A DNA stretch of 64,000 nt. It comes from Brevundimonas variabilis. Lineage in GTDB: Bacteria; Pseudomonadota; Alphaproteobacteria; Caulobacterales; Caulobacteraceae. Location: the NCBI RefSeq assembly GCF_014199945.1, contig NZ_JACHOR010000002.1, positions 496,001-560,000 of the forward strand. The letters run 5' to 3'. A program made the translations under genes and the position numbers. Below, piece after piece: positions 1 to 5,248 of the stretch (its first letter is position 1; every line of letters starts with the position of its first letter). The notes under the pieces are model-generated. The model did no database searches. It was not told the DNA's origin and saw only the letters and a program-made list of their open reading frames with translations.

Positions 1-188
1 TTCAGGCGCGTGGTGTGCGCGTCACGGTCGTGTCGACCATGAAGAGCCAGCCGCCCATGATCGCCGACGAACTTCGACGTCAGGCTGATGACTACATCGA
101 TCTCTCGGACCGGATCGGTGAATGGACTCGTCCCCGCTCACCCGCCCCTGCAACCTCGGTTCGTACCTTTGACAAGGACGAAGAATGA
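1..188 (+). CDS. NYN-domain (LabA/DUF88-like) protein, C-terminal end
   Basis: Only the last 61 codons are present; the 5' part lies left of the window. The frame starting at base 3 reads through to TGA at 186-188. The residues QARGVRVTVVST and PPMIADELRRQADDYIDL resemble, from memory, the end of LabA/DUF88 proteins. These carry an NYN (PIN-like) nuclease fold implicated in RNA metabolism. The catalytic aspartates would be upstream and cannot be checked. The stop overlaps the start of the uracil-DNA glycosylase gene as ATGA, so the two are probably cotranslated. Identification rests on a short tail and is moderate. Confidence 0.55.
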   Translation, partial: QARGVRVTVVSTMKSQPPMIADELRRQADDYIDLSDRIGEWTRPRSPAPATSVRTFDKDEE

Positions 189-826
189 GACCGCATCCGG
201 CCGAGCCGCCCCGCGACTGCCCGCTCTGCCCGAGACTGGTCGAGTATCGACGGGAAAATGCCCGCCAGAACCCTGACTGGTGGAATGGTCCCGCACCGTC
301 GTTCGGCGATCCTGACGCGCGCCTGCTGGTCGTCGGCCTGGCACCCGGCCGAACCGGAGCCAATCGCACCGGTCGGCCTTTCACCGGCGATGGCGCCGGG
401 TGGATCCTCTACGACACCCTGATCAGAACCGGGTTCGCTGTCGGAACCTATGACGCTAGGCCCGATGACGGTCTGCGGCTGATCGACTGCATGATCACCA
501 ATGCCGTCCGCTGCGCGCCCCCACTCAACAAGCCCCTCCCTCTAGAGGAGGCAACTTGCCGACCTTTTCTCAAGGCCCGCCTCGATTCCCTGCCTCGATT
601 GAAAGTAATCGTCACGCTTGGAGACGTCTCTCGCCGTAGCGTCCTGAAGACCCTCGGCCTGCCGGGAACAGCTATTCCGCCAGGCCACGGCATCGAGGGG
701 GACGCTGCCGGATATCGTCTGATCAACAGCTACCACTGCTCCCGACTGAACACGAACACCGGACGCCTGACGCCGGAAATGTTCGAGGCAATTTTCACCC
801 GTGCCAGGACGATGATCGGTGACTGA
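185..826 (+). CDS. Uracil-DNA glycosylase, family 5 (UDGb)
   Basis: The 213-residue protein excises uracil and deaminated bases from DNA as the first step of base-excision repair. Motif A is GLAPGRTGANRTGRPFTGD, beginning near residue 51; the NRTGRPFTGD ending is typical of family 5 rather than family 4. The second motif reads HCSRLNTNTGRLT (His184 onward). Four cysteines placed as in iron-sulfur UDGs are visible: C12 and C15 (CPLC), C110 (NAVRC) and C125. Family 5 enzymes lack the catalytic Asp/Asn of family 1 in motif A. The ATG overlaps the preceding stop, and length matches the family. Confidence 0.9.
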   Translation: MRPHPAEPPRDCPLCPRLVEYRRENARQNPDWWNGPAPSFGDPDARLLVVGLAPGRTGANRTGRPFTGDGAGWILYDTLIRTGFAVGTYDARPDDGLRLIDCMITNAVRCAPPLNKPLPLEEATCRPFLKARLDSLPRLKVIVTLGDVSRRSVLKTLGLPGTAIPPGHGIEGDAAGYRLINSYHCSRLNTNTGRLTPEMFEAIFTRARTMIGD

Positions 827-922: not shown

Positions 923-1858
923 ATGCTTGTTGCCGCACTTGCTTCGTTGCTGATGGTCTCTGCGCCTCAGTCGTCCGGCTCGGCCCAGGACCCTGCGGAT
1001 CCGGTCGTCGACCTGGGCGACATCGTCGTCGACGGACGTCGCGTCGAGGACCTGACCCGGGAGTTCGTCGGTCAGGTCGCCGCCCCCGCACAGAACAGGG
1101 GTCTGGCGCGCTGGCGCGATGGAGTCTGCATCGGTGTCGTCAACCTCAAGCCCGACATGGCCCAGTATATCGCGGACCGGGTCTCGACCGTGGCCGAGGA
1201 TGTCGGGCTCAAGCCCGGAGCGCCCGGCTGTATGCCCAGCGTTCTGGTCGTTGCCACGGTGGATGCCTCAACCTTCACGGCACAGTTCGTGTCTCAACGG
1301 CCGCGGATTTTCCGCGTCGGCGGATCCGGAATGGACCTCGGGTCCGGAGCTCTGAACAAATTCATTACGGTCGACCGGCCCGTGCGCTGGTGGAACATCA
1401 GCCTCCCGATCGACAGCGACACCGGTCGCCGCGCCGTCAGGTTTCCGGGCGATACCGATGCTGAAGGCAATCCGACAGCACCCATCATCCGGCGGGGTGC
1501 CGCCTCGCGCCTGACCACACAGGTCGTGGACGACACCCAACGCGCCTTCGTGATCGTGGACATCGACCGGATTCAGGACGTTTCCCTGGAACAGCTCGCC
1601 GACTATATCGCCTTTGTGTCCCTGGCCCAGGTCGATCCGGATGCGGACACGTCCGGCTTCGCCAGCATCCTGAACGTCTTCGATGACCCTCAGCAGACCC
1701 GGACCCTGACCGACTGGGACAAGGCCTATCTGAAGGGCCTGTATGACACGATCCGCACCCGCCAGAACTTTGGTGCGCAGCGGACCGAGGTCATCGATTC
1801 CATCGTGCGCGCACACCGCGAACTCACAGCAGCTTCAGACAACGCAACCCCCGAGTAA
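923..1858 (+). CDS. Exported protein of unknown function, tandem paralog 1
   Basis: A 311-residue protein, first of four tandem homologs, and I do not recognise a named function. The N-terminus (MLVAALASLLMVSA) is hydrophobic and followed by a low-complexity linker, suggesting export, although it lacks the usual basic residues. Shared blocks in order are DLGDIVVDGRR (~31), RGLARWRDGVC (~60), a second conserved Cys in PGC (~93), VGGSGMD, RPVRWWN, SRLTTQVVDDTQR, SLEQLADYIAFVSLAQVD, ILNVFDDP and LTDWDKAYLKGLYDT. The C-terminal arrangement recalls DUF2927 proteins and sphingomonad hypothetical proteins, but no HExxH metalloprotease motif is present. In-frame stop TAG at 881 rules out a long N-terminal extension. 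Confidence 0.8.
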   Translation: MLVAALASLLMVSAPQSSGSAQDPADPVVDLGDIVVDGRRVEDLTREFVGQVAAPAQNRGLARWRDGVCIGVVNLKPDMAQYIADRVSTVAEDVGLKPGAPGCMPSVLVVATVDASTFTAQFVSQRPRIFRVGGSGMDLGSGALNKFITVDRPVRWWNISLPIDSDTGRRAVRFPGDTDAEGNPTAPIIRRGAASRLTTQVVDDTQRAFVIVDIDRIQDVSLEQLADYIAFVSLAQVDPDADTSGFASILNVFDDPQQTRTLTDWDKAYLKGLYDTIRTRQNFGAQRTEVIDSIVRAHRELTAASDNATPE

Positions 1859-1890
1859 GCGGCCCACATACCCATCCAGGAACCGAGTCG

Positions 1891-2832
1891 ATGTTCGTCG
1901 CTGCCCTCGCCTCATTGATGATCGCATCGGCTCCGCAGGAGACTGTGCCTCCGGTTCAGGCTCCTGCGGAGCCGGTCGTCGATCTGGGCGACATCATCGT
2001 TGATGGACGACGTATCGAGGACCTGACCCGGGAATTCGTCGCGGAAGTCGCAGCCCCGTCCCAAAATCGCGGCCTGGCACGCTGGCGGGACGGCGTCTGC
2101 ATCGGGGCCATCAATCTCAAGCGCGACACGGCCCAGTTCATCATCGATCGCGTTTCAACGGTGGCGGCCGACCTTGGACTTCGGCCCGGTCTGCCCGACT
2201 GCAACCTGAATGTGGTCGTCATCGCCACAGTCGACTCGACCGAGTTCACAAGGCAGTTCGTCGCCCAGCGTCCCCGGATCTTCCGGGTCGGAGGTTCGGG
2301 GATGGACCTGGGATCGGGCGCATTGAACGATTTCATCACTGTGGACCGTCCGGTGCGCTGGTGGAACATCAGCATCCCTGTCGATGAGAATACCGGACGA
2401 CGCGCCGTGCGTCTGGCTGCCGATGCCGACGCTGCGGGCGATCTGGTTGCGCCGATTGTCCGGCTGGGGGCTGCCTCGCGGCTGACGACGCAGGTCGTGG
2501 ACGATACCCAGCGCGCCTACATCATCGTGGACGTCGACCAGATTCAGTCCATCTCCCTGGAACAGCTTGCCGACTACGTCGCCTTCGTGTCGCTGGCACA
2601 GGTCGATCCGGATGCGGATACTTCGGGCTTTGCCACCATCCTGAACGTCTTTGAGGATCCGCAGCAGACTCGCACCCTGACGGACTGGGACAAAGCCTAT
2701 CTACGCGGTCTGTATGAGACGGTCCGCACGCGCGAGAATTTCAGCGCCCAGCGGACCGAAGTCGTCGATTCCATCGTCCGCGCCCATCGCGCCCTGACGG
2801 CGGCCAGAGACGCAGACACCACCAACGATTGA
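1891..2832 (+). CDS. Exported protein of unknown function, tandem paralog 2
   Basis: A 313-residue homolog of the preceding gene, 32 bases downstream with its own Shine-Dalgarno-like AGGAA. It is the closest relative of paralog 1: DLGDIIVDGRR, ARWRDGVCIG, VGGSGMDLGSGALN, DRPVRWWNIS and the SLEQLADYVAFVSLAQVD to LYETVR region are almost identical, implying fairly recent duplication. Both family cysteines are kept. The N-terminus MFVAALASLMIASA is again hydrophobic without basic residues. No catalytic motif is recognised. Cotranscription with its neighbours is inferred from the short, uniform spacing. Confidence 0.8.
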   Translation: MFVAALASLMIASAPQETVPPVQAPAEPVVDLGDIIVDGRRIEDLTREFVAEVAAPSQNRGLARWRDGVCIGAINLKRDTAQFIIDRVSTVAADLGLRPGLPDCNLNVVVIATVDSTEFTRQFVAQRPRIFRVGGSGMDLGSGALNDFITVDRPVRWWNISIPVDENTGRRAVRLAADADAAGDLVAPIVRLGAASRLTTQVVDDTQRAYIIVDVDQIQSISLEQLADYVAFVSLAQVDPDADTSGFATILNVFEDPQQTRTLTDWDKAYLRGLYETVRTRENFSAQRTEVVDSIVRAHRALTAARDADTTND

Positions 2833-2864
2833 CCTCGCCTCGTCACTGACCCGGAGACAAGACC

Positions 2865-3785
2865 ATGCTGACCGCCGCTCTCGCCTCCCTGATGATGCTG
2901 ACAACGGGCCAGGACATCATGTCCGTTCAGGACCCGTCAGTTCCGCAACCGCCAGCGGTGGACCTTGAGGACATCGTCGTCGAAGGCCGTCCGCTCGAGG
3001 ACCTCACCCAGACCTTTGTCCGCGAAGTGGCTGCTCCGGCCCGCAATCGCGGCATGGCGCGGTGGCGCGACGGCCTCTGTGTCGGCGTTGCCAACCTCCA
3101 GCCCGACATGGCGCAGTATATCACCGACCGCGTGTCCACCGTGGCGCGGGACGTCGGGCTTCGACCGGGCGAGCCGGGCTGCGAACCACATGTGCTGATC
3201 GTGGCCACGATCGATGCATCGACCTTTACCCGACAGTTCGTCGAGGCTCGGCCACGTCTCTTCCGGGTTGGTGGCAGCGGGATGGACCGCGGAGCTGGAG
3301 CCTTCAAGGCCTTCATCGAGAACGACCAGCCTGTTCGCTGGTGGAATGTCAGCGTCCCCGTCAATGACGAGACTGGCCTGATCGCCGTTCGTCTGCCGGG
3401 CGAAGAGGCCCCCAGAAATGGCGTTCAGCCCTCGCGTATCACGACCCAGATCGTGGACGACACCAAGCGGTCCTTCATCATCGTTGACGTCGACAAGACC
3501 AAGGATGTCTCGCTGGAGCAGTTGGCGGACTACATCGCCTTCGTGGCCCTCGCCCAGGTAGATCCGGAGGCGGATACGTCCGGGTATGCCACGATCCTGA
3601 ACGTGTTCGATGATCCGGCACAGACCCGCACCCTCACCAATTGGGACCGCGCCTATCTGCAAGGGCTCTATGACACCATCCGCCGTCGCAAGAATTTCGG
3701 CGCCCAGCGGACTGAAGTGGTTGATTCGATCGTTCGCGTGCACCAGCAGCTCACGACCGAAACGGACGCTGCCACAAACGACTGA
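2865..3785 (+). CDS. Exported protein of unknown function, tandem paralog 3
   Basis: A 306-residue homolog, 32 bases after paralog 2, with CGGAGAC as a plausible ribosome-binding site. It keeps RWRDGLCVGV, the PGC cysteine, VGGSGMD, QPVRWWNVS, the DDTKRSFIIVDVDK strand and the SLEQLADYIAFVALAQVD to LYDTIRR region. The variable loop before SRITTQIVDD is shorter than in paralogs 1, 2 and 4. It is clearly older in divergence than the 1/2 pair. The N-terminus MLTAALASLMMLTT is hydrophobic. Function unknown. Confidence 0.8.
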   Translation: MLTAALASLMMLTTGQDIMSVQDPSVPQPPAVDLEDIVVEGRPLEDLTQTFVREVAAPARNRGMARWRDGLCVGVANLQPDMAQYITDRVSTVARDVGLRPGEPGCEPHVLIVATIDASTFTRQFVEARPRLFRVGGSGMDRGAGAFKAFIENDQPVRWWNVSVPVNDETGLIAVRLPGEEAPRNGVQPSRITTQIVDDTKRSFIIVDVDKTKDVSLEQLADYIAFVALAQVDPEADTSGYATILNVFDDPAQTRTLTNWDRAYLQGLYDTIRRRKNFGAQRTEVVDSIVRVHQQLTTETDAATND

Positions 3786-3813
3786 CACCCTCGTCCCAAA
3801 GGAAGGCTAGACC

Positions 3814-4758
3814 ATGATCGGCACTGTTCTTTCCCTCGCCTTGTTTCAGGCTGTGTCCCAACAGCCGGTGGCTGATCCGGCTCTGGCGGGCCCCGCAGTC
3901 GACCTTGGGGACATCGTCGTCGAAGGTCGTCAGTTGGAAGACATTGCCTCGCGGTTCGTGGGTGAGGTCGCGGACCCGGTCAGACACCGTGGGCTGGCGC
4001 GATGGAGGGACGGTGTCTGCGTAGGCGTCGCCAACCTGCAGCCCGACATGGCCCAGCAGATGGTGGATCGCATCTCCACCATCGTTGAGGACGTGGGCCT
4101 CACGCCCGGGGCACCCGGCTGCTCGCCCAATATTCTGGTGATCGCGACCGTGGATGCCAACCGGTTCACACCGCAGTTCGTGGCCCAGAGGCCGCGCTTG
4201 TTTCTGGTCGGCGGCTCGGGGATGGATCAGGGCACGGCCGCGCTCGATCGCTTCCGCACGACCGACCGGCCGGTCCGCTGGTGGACGGTCAGCATCAAGA
4301 CCGACGATGATACCGGAAAGGCCTCCGTACGACTGCCCGGAGCCATGAACGCTGATGGCACCGGCCCGTTTTCGGTCATGCATTATGCCCCGATCGTGAA
4401 CGTCCGTGCGGCATCACGGCTGACGACTTCCTATGTGGATGACGCCAAGCGATCCTTCGTCATCGTCGATGTCGACAAGGTTCAGGGCATCTCGCTGGAC
4501 CAGCTGGCCGACTATGTCGCCATGGTCTCCCTGGCCCAGATCGATGCTGACGCCGACACGTCCGGATATGCGACGATCCTGAACGTGTTCGAGGATCCGG
4601 GCCAGACGCCCGGTCTGACGAACTGGGATCGCGCCTATTTGGTCGGGCTCTATGACACACAGCGGCGACGATTGAACCGGACCAGCCAAAGAACCGAAGT
4701 CGTCGATTCGATCGTGCGGGCGCATCACCGCCTCACAGCGACGGAGCCGACTGAATAG
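3814..4758 (+). CDS. Exported protein of unknown function, tandem paralog 4
   Basis: A 314-residue homolog, the most divergent of the four and last in the array, 28 bases after paralog 3 with AAGGAAGG upstream. Core blocks persist: DLGDIVVEGRQ, RGLARWRDGVCVGV, PGC, VGGSGMD, RPVRWWTVS, SFVIVDVDK, SLDQLADYVAMVSLAQID and WDRAYLVGLYDT. The loop near residues 175-200 is extended (NADGTGPFSVMHY). It ends four bases before the convergent smpB stop codon, with no visible terminator between them. Function unknown. Confidence 0.8.
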   Translation: MIGTVLSLALFQAVSQQPVADPALAGPAVDLGDIVVEGRQLEDIASRFVGEVADPVRHRGLARWRDGVCVGVANLQPDMAQQMVDRISTIVEDVGLTPGAPGCSPNILVIATVDANRFTPQFVAQRPRLFLVGGSGMDQGTAALDRFRTTDRPVRWWTVSIKTDDDTGKASVRLPGAMNADGTGPFSVMHYAPIVNVRAASRLTTSYVDDAKRSFVIVDVDKVQGISLDQLADYVAMVSLAQIDADADTSGYATILNVFEDPGQTPGLTNWDRAYLVGLYDTQRRRLNRTSQRTEVVDSIVRAHHRLTATEPTE

Positions 4759-4762
4759 AGGC

Positions 4763-5248
4763 CTAGCCCTTGTCCCTCATCAGCCGGGCCTTGTCCCGGG
4801 CCCAGTCGCGGTCAGCCGTGGCTTCGCGCTTGTCATGAAGCTTCTTACCCTTGGCGAGCGCGATCTCGAGCTTGGCCTTGCCGGCATCGTTCAGATACAG
4901 CCGGATCGGGATGATCGTCTGGCCGTCCCTCTGCACCGCCCCGATGAGCCGATCGATCTGCTTTCGGTGCAGGAGCAGTTTCCTCGGCCGCCGCGGCTCG
5001 TGGTTGAAGCGGTTGGCCTGGGCGTAGGGCGGGATATCGGCATTGATCAGGACGATCTCGCGGCCTTCGACCGCTGCATAACTCTCGGCGATATTGGCTC
5101 GGCCCATCCGCAGGGCCTTGATCTCGGTCCCCAGCAGCATGATCCCGGCTTCGACGTTGTCCTCGAGGAAGTAGTCGAATTTCGCCCGGCGGTTCTCGGC
5201 GATGACCTTGGATGTCGTCAGCGGGGCCTTTTCCTTGGGTGGAGGCAT
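4763..5248 (-). CDS. smpB: SsrA-binding protein SmpB
   Basis: SmpB binds tmRNA and delivers it to stalled ribosomes for trans-translation. The 161-residue protein has the expected NRRAKFDYF near residue 18, GTEIKALR, and the basic C-terminal tail ([17 protein letters not shown]) that enters the empty mRNA channel. Length is normal for the family. It directly follows dapA on the same strand, sharing one base, so the two are probably one transcript. Confidence 0.97.

Follow-up and report, generated by a model that had tools for sequence, protein, structure and literature searches.

The window, a stretch of 64,000 nucleotides from Brevundimonas variabilis (contig NZ_JACHOR010000002.1, positions 496,001 to 560,000), carries an array of four adjacent, co-directional genes encoding proteins of 306-314 residues, separated by gaps of 32, 32 and 28 nt (Table 1). 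A previous description made from the letters alone (the sequence-only reading) had taken these genes for tandem paralogs of an uncharacterised exported protein with uniform 28-32 base spacing, and the lengths and spacing of the open reading frames agree with it. The four copies are paralogs with a mean column identity of 77% in their alignment, and a DNA repeat search recovered four-copy repeat families in the array. Each copy has exactly two cysteines (residues 69 and 103 in copy 1), as had been noted; the motifs given for them, DGVC and PGC, are less uniform than described, the first reading DGLC in copy 3 and the second PDC in copy 2. A promoter and terminator scan of the array returned counts no higher than in shuffles, so operon structure was judged from spacing only. 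A search of the same genome with copy 1 found no further copies, and a later scan with the family profile added only the N-terminus of one receptor.

Table 1. Positions in the window of the four copies, their motifs and the flanking genes.
Feature	Position	Strand	Description
Left flank	185-826	+	Uracil-DNA-glycosylase (UDG) superfamily gene; PF03167 match
Copy 1	923-1858	+	311 aa; putative pseudo-metzincin family protein with signal-peptide-like start
Copy 1 motif LGDIVVDGRR	1013-1042	+	Residues 31-40, low-confidence tail before folded domain; score 21.2
Copy 1 residues 222-239	1586-1639	+	Helix that may correspond to the metzincin zinc-binding helix; no HExxH
Copy 2	1891-2832	+	313 aa; identity to copy 1 77%
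Copy 2 motif LGDIIVDGRR	1984-2013	+	Residues 32-41; score 21.7
Copy 3	2865-3785	+	306 aa; identity to copy 1 70%; tree partner is one L034 gene
Copy 3 motif LEDIVVEGRP	2964-2993	+	Residues 34-43; score 17.1
Copy 4	3814-4758	+	314 aa; identity to copy 1 62%; falls outside the group of copies 1-3 in the tree; L034 has no equivalent gene
Copy 4 motif LGDIVVEGRQ	3904-3933	+	Residues 31-40; score 11.9
Right flank	4763-5248	-	Convergent gene, presumably smpB-like (named from its sequence, without a family search)

Copies 1 and 2 had been called nearly identical in long stretches, which did not hold: they are only 77% identical, with a nonsynonymous divergence (dN) of 0.151, a synonymous divergence (dS) of 1.126 and a longest exact DNA run of 21 nt, values that rule out near-identity or recent gene conversion. 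The dN/dS ratio of this pair, a check that the sequence-only reading had called for, was 0.13, and each of the two is about as distant from the matching gene of the nearest relative (dN 0.111 and 0.140) as from the other copy. Across all six pairs of copies dN/dS was 0.13-0.25, by a simple Nei-Gojobori count that is near saturation. With a dS of 1.1, these ratios indicate genes old enough to have diverged and under purifying selection. They do not show the selection for dosage or diversified binding that had been suggested, although the loops at residues 165-200 and 214-221 are the most variable parts between copies (mean pair identity 0.45 and 0.48, versus 0.53 for the tail); the least variable are helix 222-234 (0.83) and the segment that follows it (0.82).

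Relation to DUF2927 and predicted fold

Searches of the four window proteins against Pfam and NCBIfam gave no family match and at most weak, inconsistent ones, and searches against PHROGs and PADLOC gave weak, inconsistent matches or none. None of the four matched DUF2927 (PF11150), the family to which the sequence-only reading had likened them, at E<=10. Among the wider family, PF11150 matched weakly 2 of the 58 members in one alignment (best E 0.073) and 1 of the 35 in another (E 0.0082), below the Pfam gathering cut-off. The 58-row alignment holds 58 of 60 non-redundant family proteins, two being left out by hand, and the members of the 35-row alignment were hand-picked for diversity. For comparison, 17 of 20 DUF2927 hits (three short or cut ones were dropped) were aligned with the protein of locus L094 to give 18 rows.

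Profile comparison with hhalign linked the two groups. The 58 members against the 18 DUF2927 rows gave a probability of 78 (E 1.8e-5), and the 35 diverse members a probability of 95 (E 3.8e-8) with a score of 61.7, versus a maximum of 17.3 in 40 column shuffles and 12.3 for the reversed profile. The match also held when the N-terminal or the C-terminal part of the DUF2927 profile was aligned by itself (E 1.1e-5 and 5.3e-6). The family profile, built without DUF2927 and run on 385 genomes of the class, picked a protein combining DUF2927 and M23 domains in one genome (E 3.3e-4). The two groups share the order of predicted elements and, in their C-terminal block, a conserved D as well as LY(D); at the place of the zinc motif the 18 DUF2927 rows show HExxH in six, EExxQ in ten and neither in two, so that 12 of them lack HExxH as the window family does. 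The window family differs in having its own RWW strand, two cysteines and a QLADY helix, and a TonB-like tail, which was found in none of the 18 DUF2927 rows; the beginning is missing from some of these. Remote homology of the window family to DUF2927 is thus supported by the profile comparisons, and the earlier link survives in that form, though not as membership at the Pfam cut-off. A search for literature on DUF2927 by that name found none, and literature searches around TonB tails, pseudoproteases and Brevundimonas gave nothing on this protein family among the matches listed.

In the L094 protein (964-2175 of its locus, minus strand), which carries HEIMHSLGVRGH, Pfam recognises DUF2927 and, fused to it, peptidase M23; the DUF2927 domain has the motif HExxHxxGxxxH. 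The family is still classed as one of unknown function, and this member may be an active zinc enzyme.

The AlphaFold2 model of copy 1 has a predicted local distance difference test (pLDDT) score of 89 overall and a predicted template modelling score of 0.84, and is mostly confident from residue 41 on. VIA realignment of this model gave a best Z of 9.4 (4h2e_A, root mean square deviation 2.9, 145 residues), and all 50 matches listed are catalytic domains of matrix metalloproteinases (MMPs) or karilysin. The model of L124, an HExxH-bearing DUF2927 relative, matched karilysin directly in Foldseek (4in9_A, E 7.3e-5) and MMP-2 in VIA (7xgj_A, Z 12.2). When the DUF2927 profile was compared with PDB sequences, 20 of 20 matches at E<=1 were MMPs, weakly so (best E 0.096). 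The family profiles in the same kind of search returned three methyltransferase chains (E 0.049 and 0.11), which were taken as chance. A matrixin-like metzincin catalytic-domain fold is well supported for the window family by these models, and we read the family as a degenerate branch of one matrixin-like superfamily shared with DUF2927.

HExxH occurs in none of 72 distinct family members, so they are most likely zinc-less pseudo-metzincins. Both the lack of HExxH and the inactive metalloprotease-like role proposed in the sequence-only reading are consistent with these data, since the models of the family and of the DUF2927 group both resemble matrixin-like metzincins. In likeness to matrixin-type metzincins (MMPs and bacterial karilysin) the family has the predicted catalytic-domain fold; unlike them it lacks the zinc motif HExxHxxGxxH/D and probably the Met-turn methionine. 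The column that plausibly replaces the catalytic glutamate holds V, I, L or A in all rows, the likely column of the second histidine V in 48 of 58 and 20 of 35 rows (R in 7 of the 35), and the likely Met-turn column, itself an inferred assignment, L in every one of the 58 rows and in 33 of the 35. This residue-by-residue mapping of lost zinc ligands would follow from secondary structure (helix 222-234 in copy 1, 187-199 in L124) and an L-A / L-G match; the alignments differ in gap placement around the presumed zinc helix. The RWW strand is invariant in the 58 rows, and in the 35 rows its second W is invariant and its R nearly so.

The TonB-box-like tail

The most interesting addition made by the present analysis, and one absent from the sequence-only reading, is a TonB-box-like tail. 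All four copies have the pattern L-G/E-D-I-V/I-V-D/E-G-R after a hydrophobic start and just before the folded domain. In the copy 1 model the tail around the motif has a block pLDDT of 53-63 (63 for residues 31-40), versus 95 for residues 41-50. The TonB boxes of receptors from the same genome read, for example, VDEIVVTGSR, LGDIVVTARR and LGTIDVDGRR.

A scoring matrix was built from the TonB boxes in 29 of 30 own-genome receptor N-termini, the 30 having been fetched from 40 Plug matches. A score of at least 10 was reached by 49 of 72 family N-termini versus 4 of 1440 shuffles, by none of 206 windows taken elsewhere in the family proteins, by none of the 18 DUF2927 rows, and by none of 87 other signal-like open reading frames (a mechanical set, partly not real genes). 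A 464 kb sample of the same genome (400 kb plus the window, 428 crudely called genes) held eight genes at or above this score, namely four receptors by Pfam and the four copies. The 400 kb sample of G101 (385 genes) held five, of which four were receptors by Pfam and one a 341-aa protein that reads as a cytoplasmic reductase. The sample of G530 (395 genes) held three, two of receptor size (907 and 1069 aa, without a Pfam scan) and one of 159 aa that looks exported and has no Pfam family. The N-terminal TonB-box-like motif of this 159-aa protein, at L269 (361-837, minus strand), scores 16.9, and tails of this kind may be more widespread among soluble proteins.

The entropy of the 58-row alignment was 0.4-1.2 bits in motif columns 33, 34, 36 and 38 and mostly 2.5-3.3 bits at residues 15-30. 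Genome scans with the family profile also matched receptor N-termini, through about the first 50 profile positions. Five of seven such partial matches were examined; those at L210, L211 and L221 look like receptors from their sequences, with no family search made, and that at L209, which reads as a chemotaxis/hemerythrin-like protein, was set down to chance. A fifth, from the genome of the window itself, coincides in part with the beginning of a Plug match, the two frames being equally long.

The window proteins resemble TonB-dependent receptors in the succession of signal-like start, linker, TonB-box-like strand and folded domain, with a box that is very close to those of their own genome. 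They differ in length (about 310 aa versus roughly 700-1100) and have no plug (PF07715) and no barrel (PF00593), neither of which matched any of the four at E<=10. Soluble periplasmic proteins with a predicted TonB box or TonB contact have been described. Excerpts of PMC2729926 present VreA of the Pseudomonas aeruginosa PUMA3 system as a periplasmic protein with a predicted TonB box, and E. coli FhuD and BtuF are soluble periplasmic proteins with reported TonB contact (cited in PMC3813593, in excerpt). The folds described in these excerpts differ from that predicted here, and the predicted box of VreA lies inside a helix of its signalling domain and not in a tail.

Distribution of the family and copy-number turnover

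An unvarying set of four copies in other genomes, which would have told against the sequence-only reading, was not seen; copy number runs from 0 to at least 10. Among 131 Brevundimonas genomes, incomplete ones included and fragments kept, at least one copy was found in 114, and the number of matches was 0 in 17, 1 in 34, 2 in 31, 3 in 19, 4 in 15, 5 in 6, 6 in 5, 7 in 3 and at least 10 in 1; up to 17 candidates were scored per genome, so the high numbers are lower bounds. Beyond the genus, matches were found in 55 of 249 genomes of the order sample (21 of them Brevundimonas; 9 of 48 genera), in 16 of 82 genomes of the order of G530 (three via partial N-terminal matches only) and in 10 of 385 genomes of the class sample, where three were Brevundimonas, one was the DUF2927 protein and one is unexplained. 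In the phylum sample 11 of 299 genomes had a match, every one within the class. Of 35 records found by the family profile, 23 were named Brevundimonas. A sub-threshold match in the class sample (L095, E 5.4e-4) had no evident relative in its list of open reading frames and was set aside.

Three relatives have fewer copies at the site between the UDG and smpB-like genes: L034 has two, L035 and L036 one each. A tree placed copies 1-3 and both L034 genes in one group (support 100/95) with copy 4 outside (97/85); one L034 gene grouped with copies 1 and 2 and the other with copy 3. The simplest reading of this placement is that L034 has lost copy 4 and one other copy, and its lower number may also be an assembly loss, L034 being a metagenome-assembled genome. 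Judged by eye, copies in the tree seem to cluster mostly according to genomic site. Copies arise and vanish by tandem duplication and loss, and the family shows copy-number turnover. At L053 (3877-4837) one family gene of a tandem set is represented by two partial frames that overlap, and looks like a decaying copy. A family gene in L066, a record titled Candidatus Sulfopaludibacter (Acidobacteriota), falls very near that of the Hyphomonadaceae bin L064 in the tree; L066 is probably a misbinned contig.

Proposed function and alternatives

The explanation that we favour, tentatively and with somewhat less than even confidence, is that the window proteins are exported pseudo-proteases in which the old cleft binds a peptide or protein and the tail docks on TonB. 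Each protein would begin with a putative signal sequence, continue with a disordered tail that includes the TonB-box-like strand, and end in a matrixin-like domain that is distantly related to DUF2927 and lacks the zinc motif. Export is suggested by the signal-like start; the old cleft, bordered by the RWW strand, may bind an extended peptide or protein; the tail, by its resemblance to the TonB box, may pair with TonB; and tandem duplication and loss would vary the dose and the loop sequences. Pseudopeptidases that act by binding are reviewed in PMC11266112 (in excerpt), and a soluble contact with TonB would have precedents in FhuD and BtuF and in the predicted VreA box, as far as the excerpts go.

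Several results weigh against this explanation. In Foldseek alone the copy 1 model had no PDB match at E<=0.001, with MMPs among the weak ones; the VIA values cover the Foldseek top 1000 chains only, and according to VIA's own note a Z of 7-8 is typical of models that lack a clear match. The hhalign comparison was weak against the six HExxH-bearing DUF2927 rows alone (E 0.0013). The family copy of G101 scored 5.8 for the TonB box and the two copies of G530 scored 7.2 and under 4, while a non-receptor gene reached 10 in each sample. At the T of the local boxes the family has mostly E, T or D, and the 35-row alignment conserves tail columns outside the motif as well (prolines 15 and 24). Hydrophobic starts were seen in the copies by sequence and a crude signal pattern fits two of the four frames, with copies 1, 2 and 4 as read lacking a positive charge near the N-terminus. 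In the genome of the window and close to it the likeness to the TonB box is strong; at greater distance it becomes blurred.

Possible, if less probable, is that the proteins have the same pseudo-metzincin fold and bind a ligand in the periplasm, the tail being a strand that binds the protein itself or a partner, or a leftover of the signal region shared with receptors, and making no contact with TonB. The weaker motif scores of distant members agree with this, as does the position of the motif directly next to the folded domain, where it could serve the domain itself. The conservation of the motif within an otherwise variable tail, and its being common only to receptors and the family in the own-genome sample, argue for the TonB-docking tail instead.

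A place in protein quality control, with the genes standing beside tig-clpP-clpX and smpB because they serve one stress response, is improbable. Of 55 loci, 16 have family genes adjoining tig and/or clpP, always on the same strand, and 5 have them adjoining smpB; the loci are a non-random sample, the regions L126-L145 having been chosen from multi-copy genomes. Family genes stand beside tig, clpP and clpX, and in line with them, at L132, L134-L136, L138, L139, L141, L144, L052-L054, L057, L058, L062, L067 and L068, and at L132 four family copies lie between tig and clpP. Among 95 shorter, partly overlapping loci, 15 show tig or clpP, including one, with tig alone, that comes from a different genus of the same taxonomic family. 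Other copies lie at unrelated sites, including a putative glutathione reductase / rpiA / glmU site, and proteins with a signal-peptide-like start would not be expected to work with ClpP, which is cytoplasmic. The neighbours that we take to be tig, clpP, clpX, lon, glutathione reductase, rpiA and glmU were named from their sequences, without database searches.

It is very improbable that the proteins are active enzymes whose old cleft houses a different catalytic arrangement, formed by R155, W157, D227, Q236, D266 and Y274. All six residues are invariant in the 58 rows, and W157, D266 and Y274 in the 35 rows too, but Q236 is kept in only 28 of the 35 diverse members and D227 in 34, and no known hydrolase family was matched in Pfam or NCBIfam. 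Least credible of all are bacteriocin-like proteins that enter neighbouring cells through the tail: bacteriocins are described with N-terminal disordered TonB-related tails (PMC7064778, in excerpt), yet no toxin family appeared among the weak library matches of the four proteins, the flanks are UDG and smpB-like genes with no obvious immunity gene (no dedicated search for one was made), one genome holds at least 10 matches, and the copies are under purifying selection.

The pseudo-protease explanation with a TonB-docking tail has a bolder form, which we consider rather unlikely as it stands. The proteins would be soluble, non-receptor clients of TonB, exported pseudo-metalloproteases with a true TonB box that hold peptides near TonB or compete with receptors and so tune nutrient uptake, with a fluctuating copy number. 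The analysis gives a predicted fold and a biochemical hypothesis to an unnamed family that occurs in most sampled Brevundimonas genomes and also in other alphaproteobacterial groups, and would reinterpret DUF2927 as matrixin-like, with HExxH-bearing and HExxH-less forms. If the bolder form is true, TonB has soluble partners with genuine TonB boxes, which would change the picture of competition for TonB in receptor-rich bacteria.

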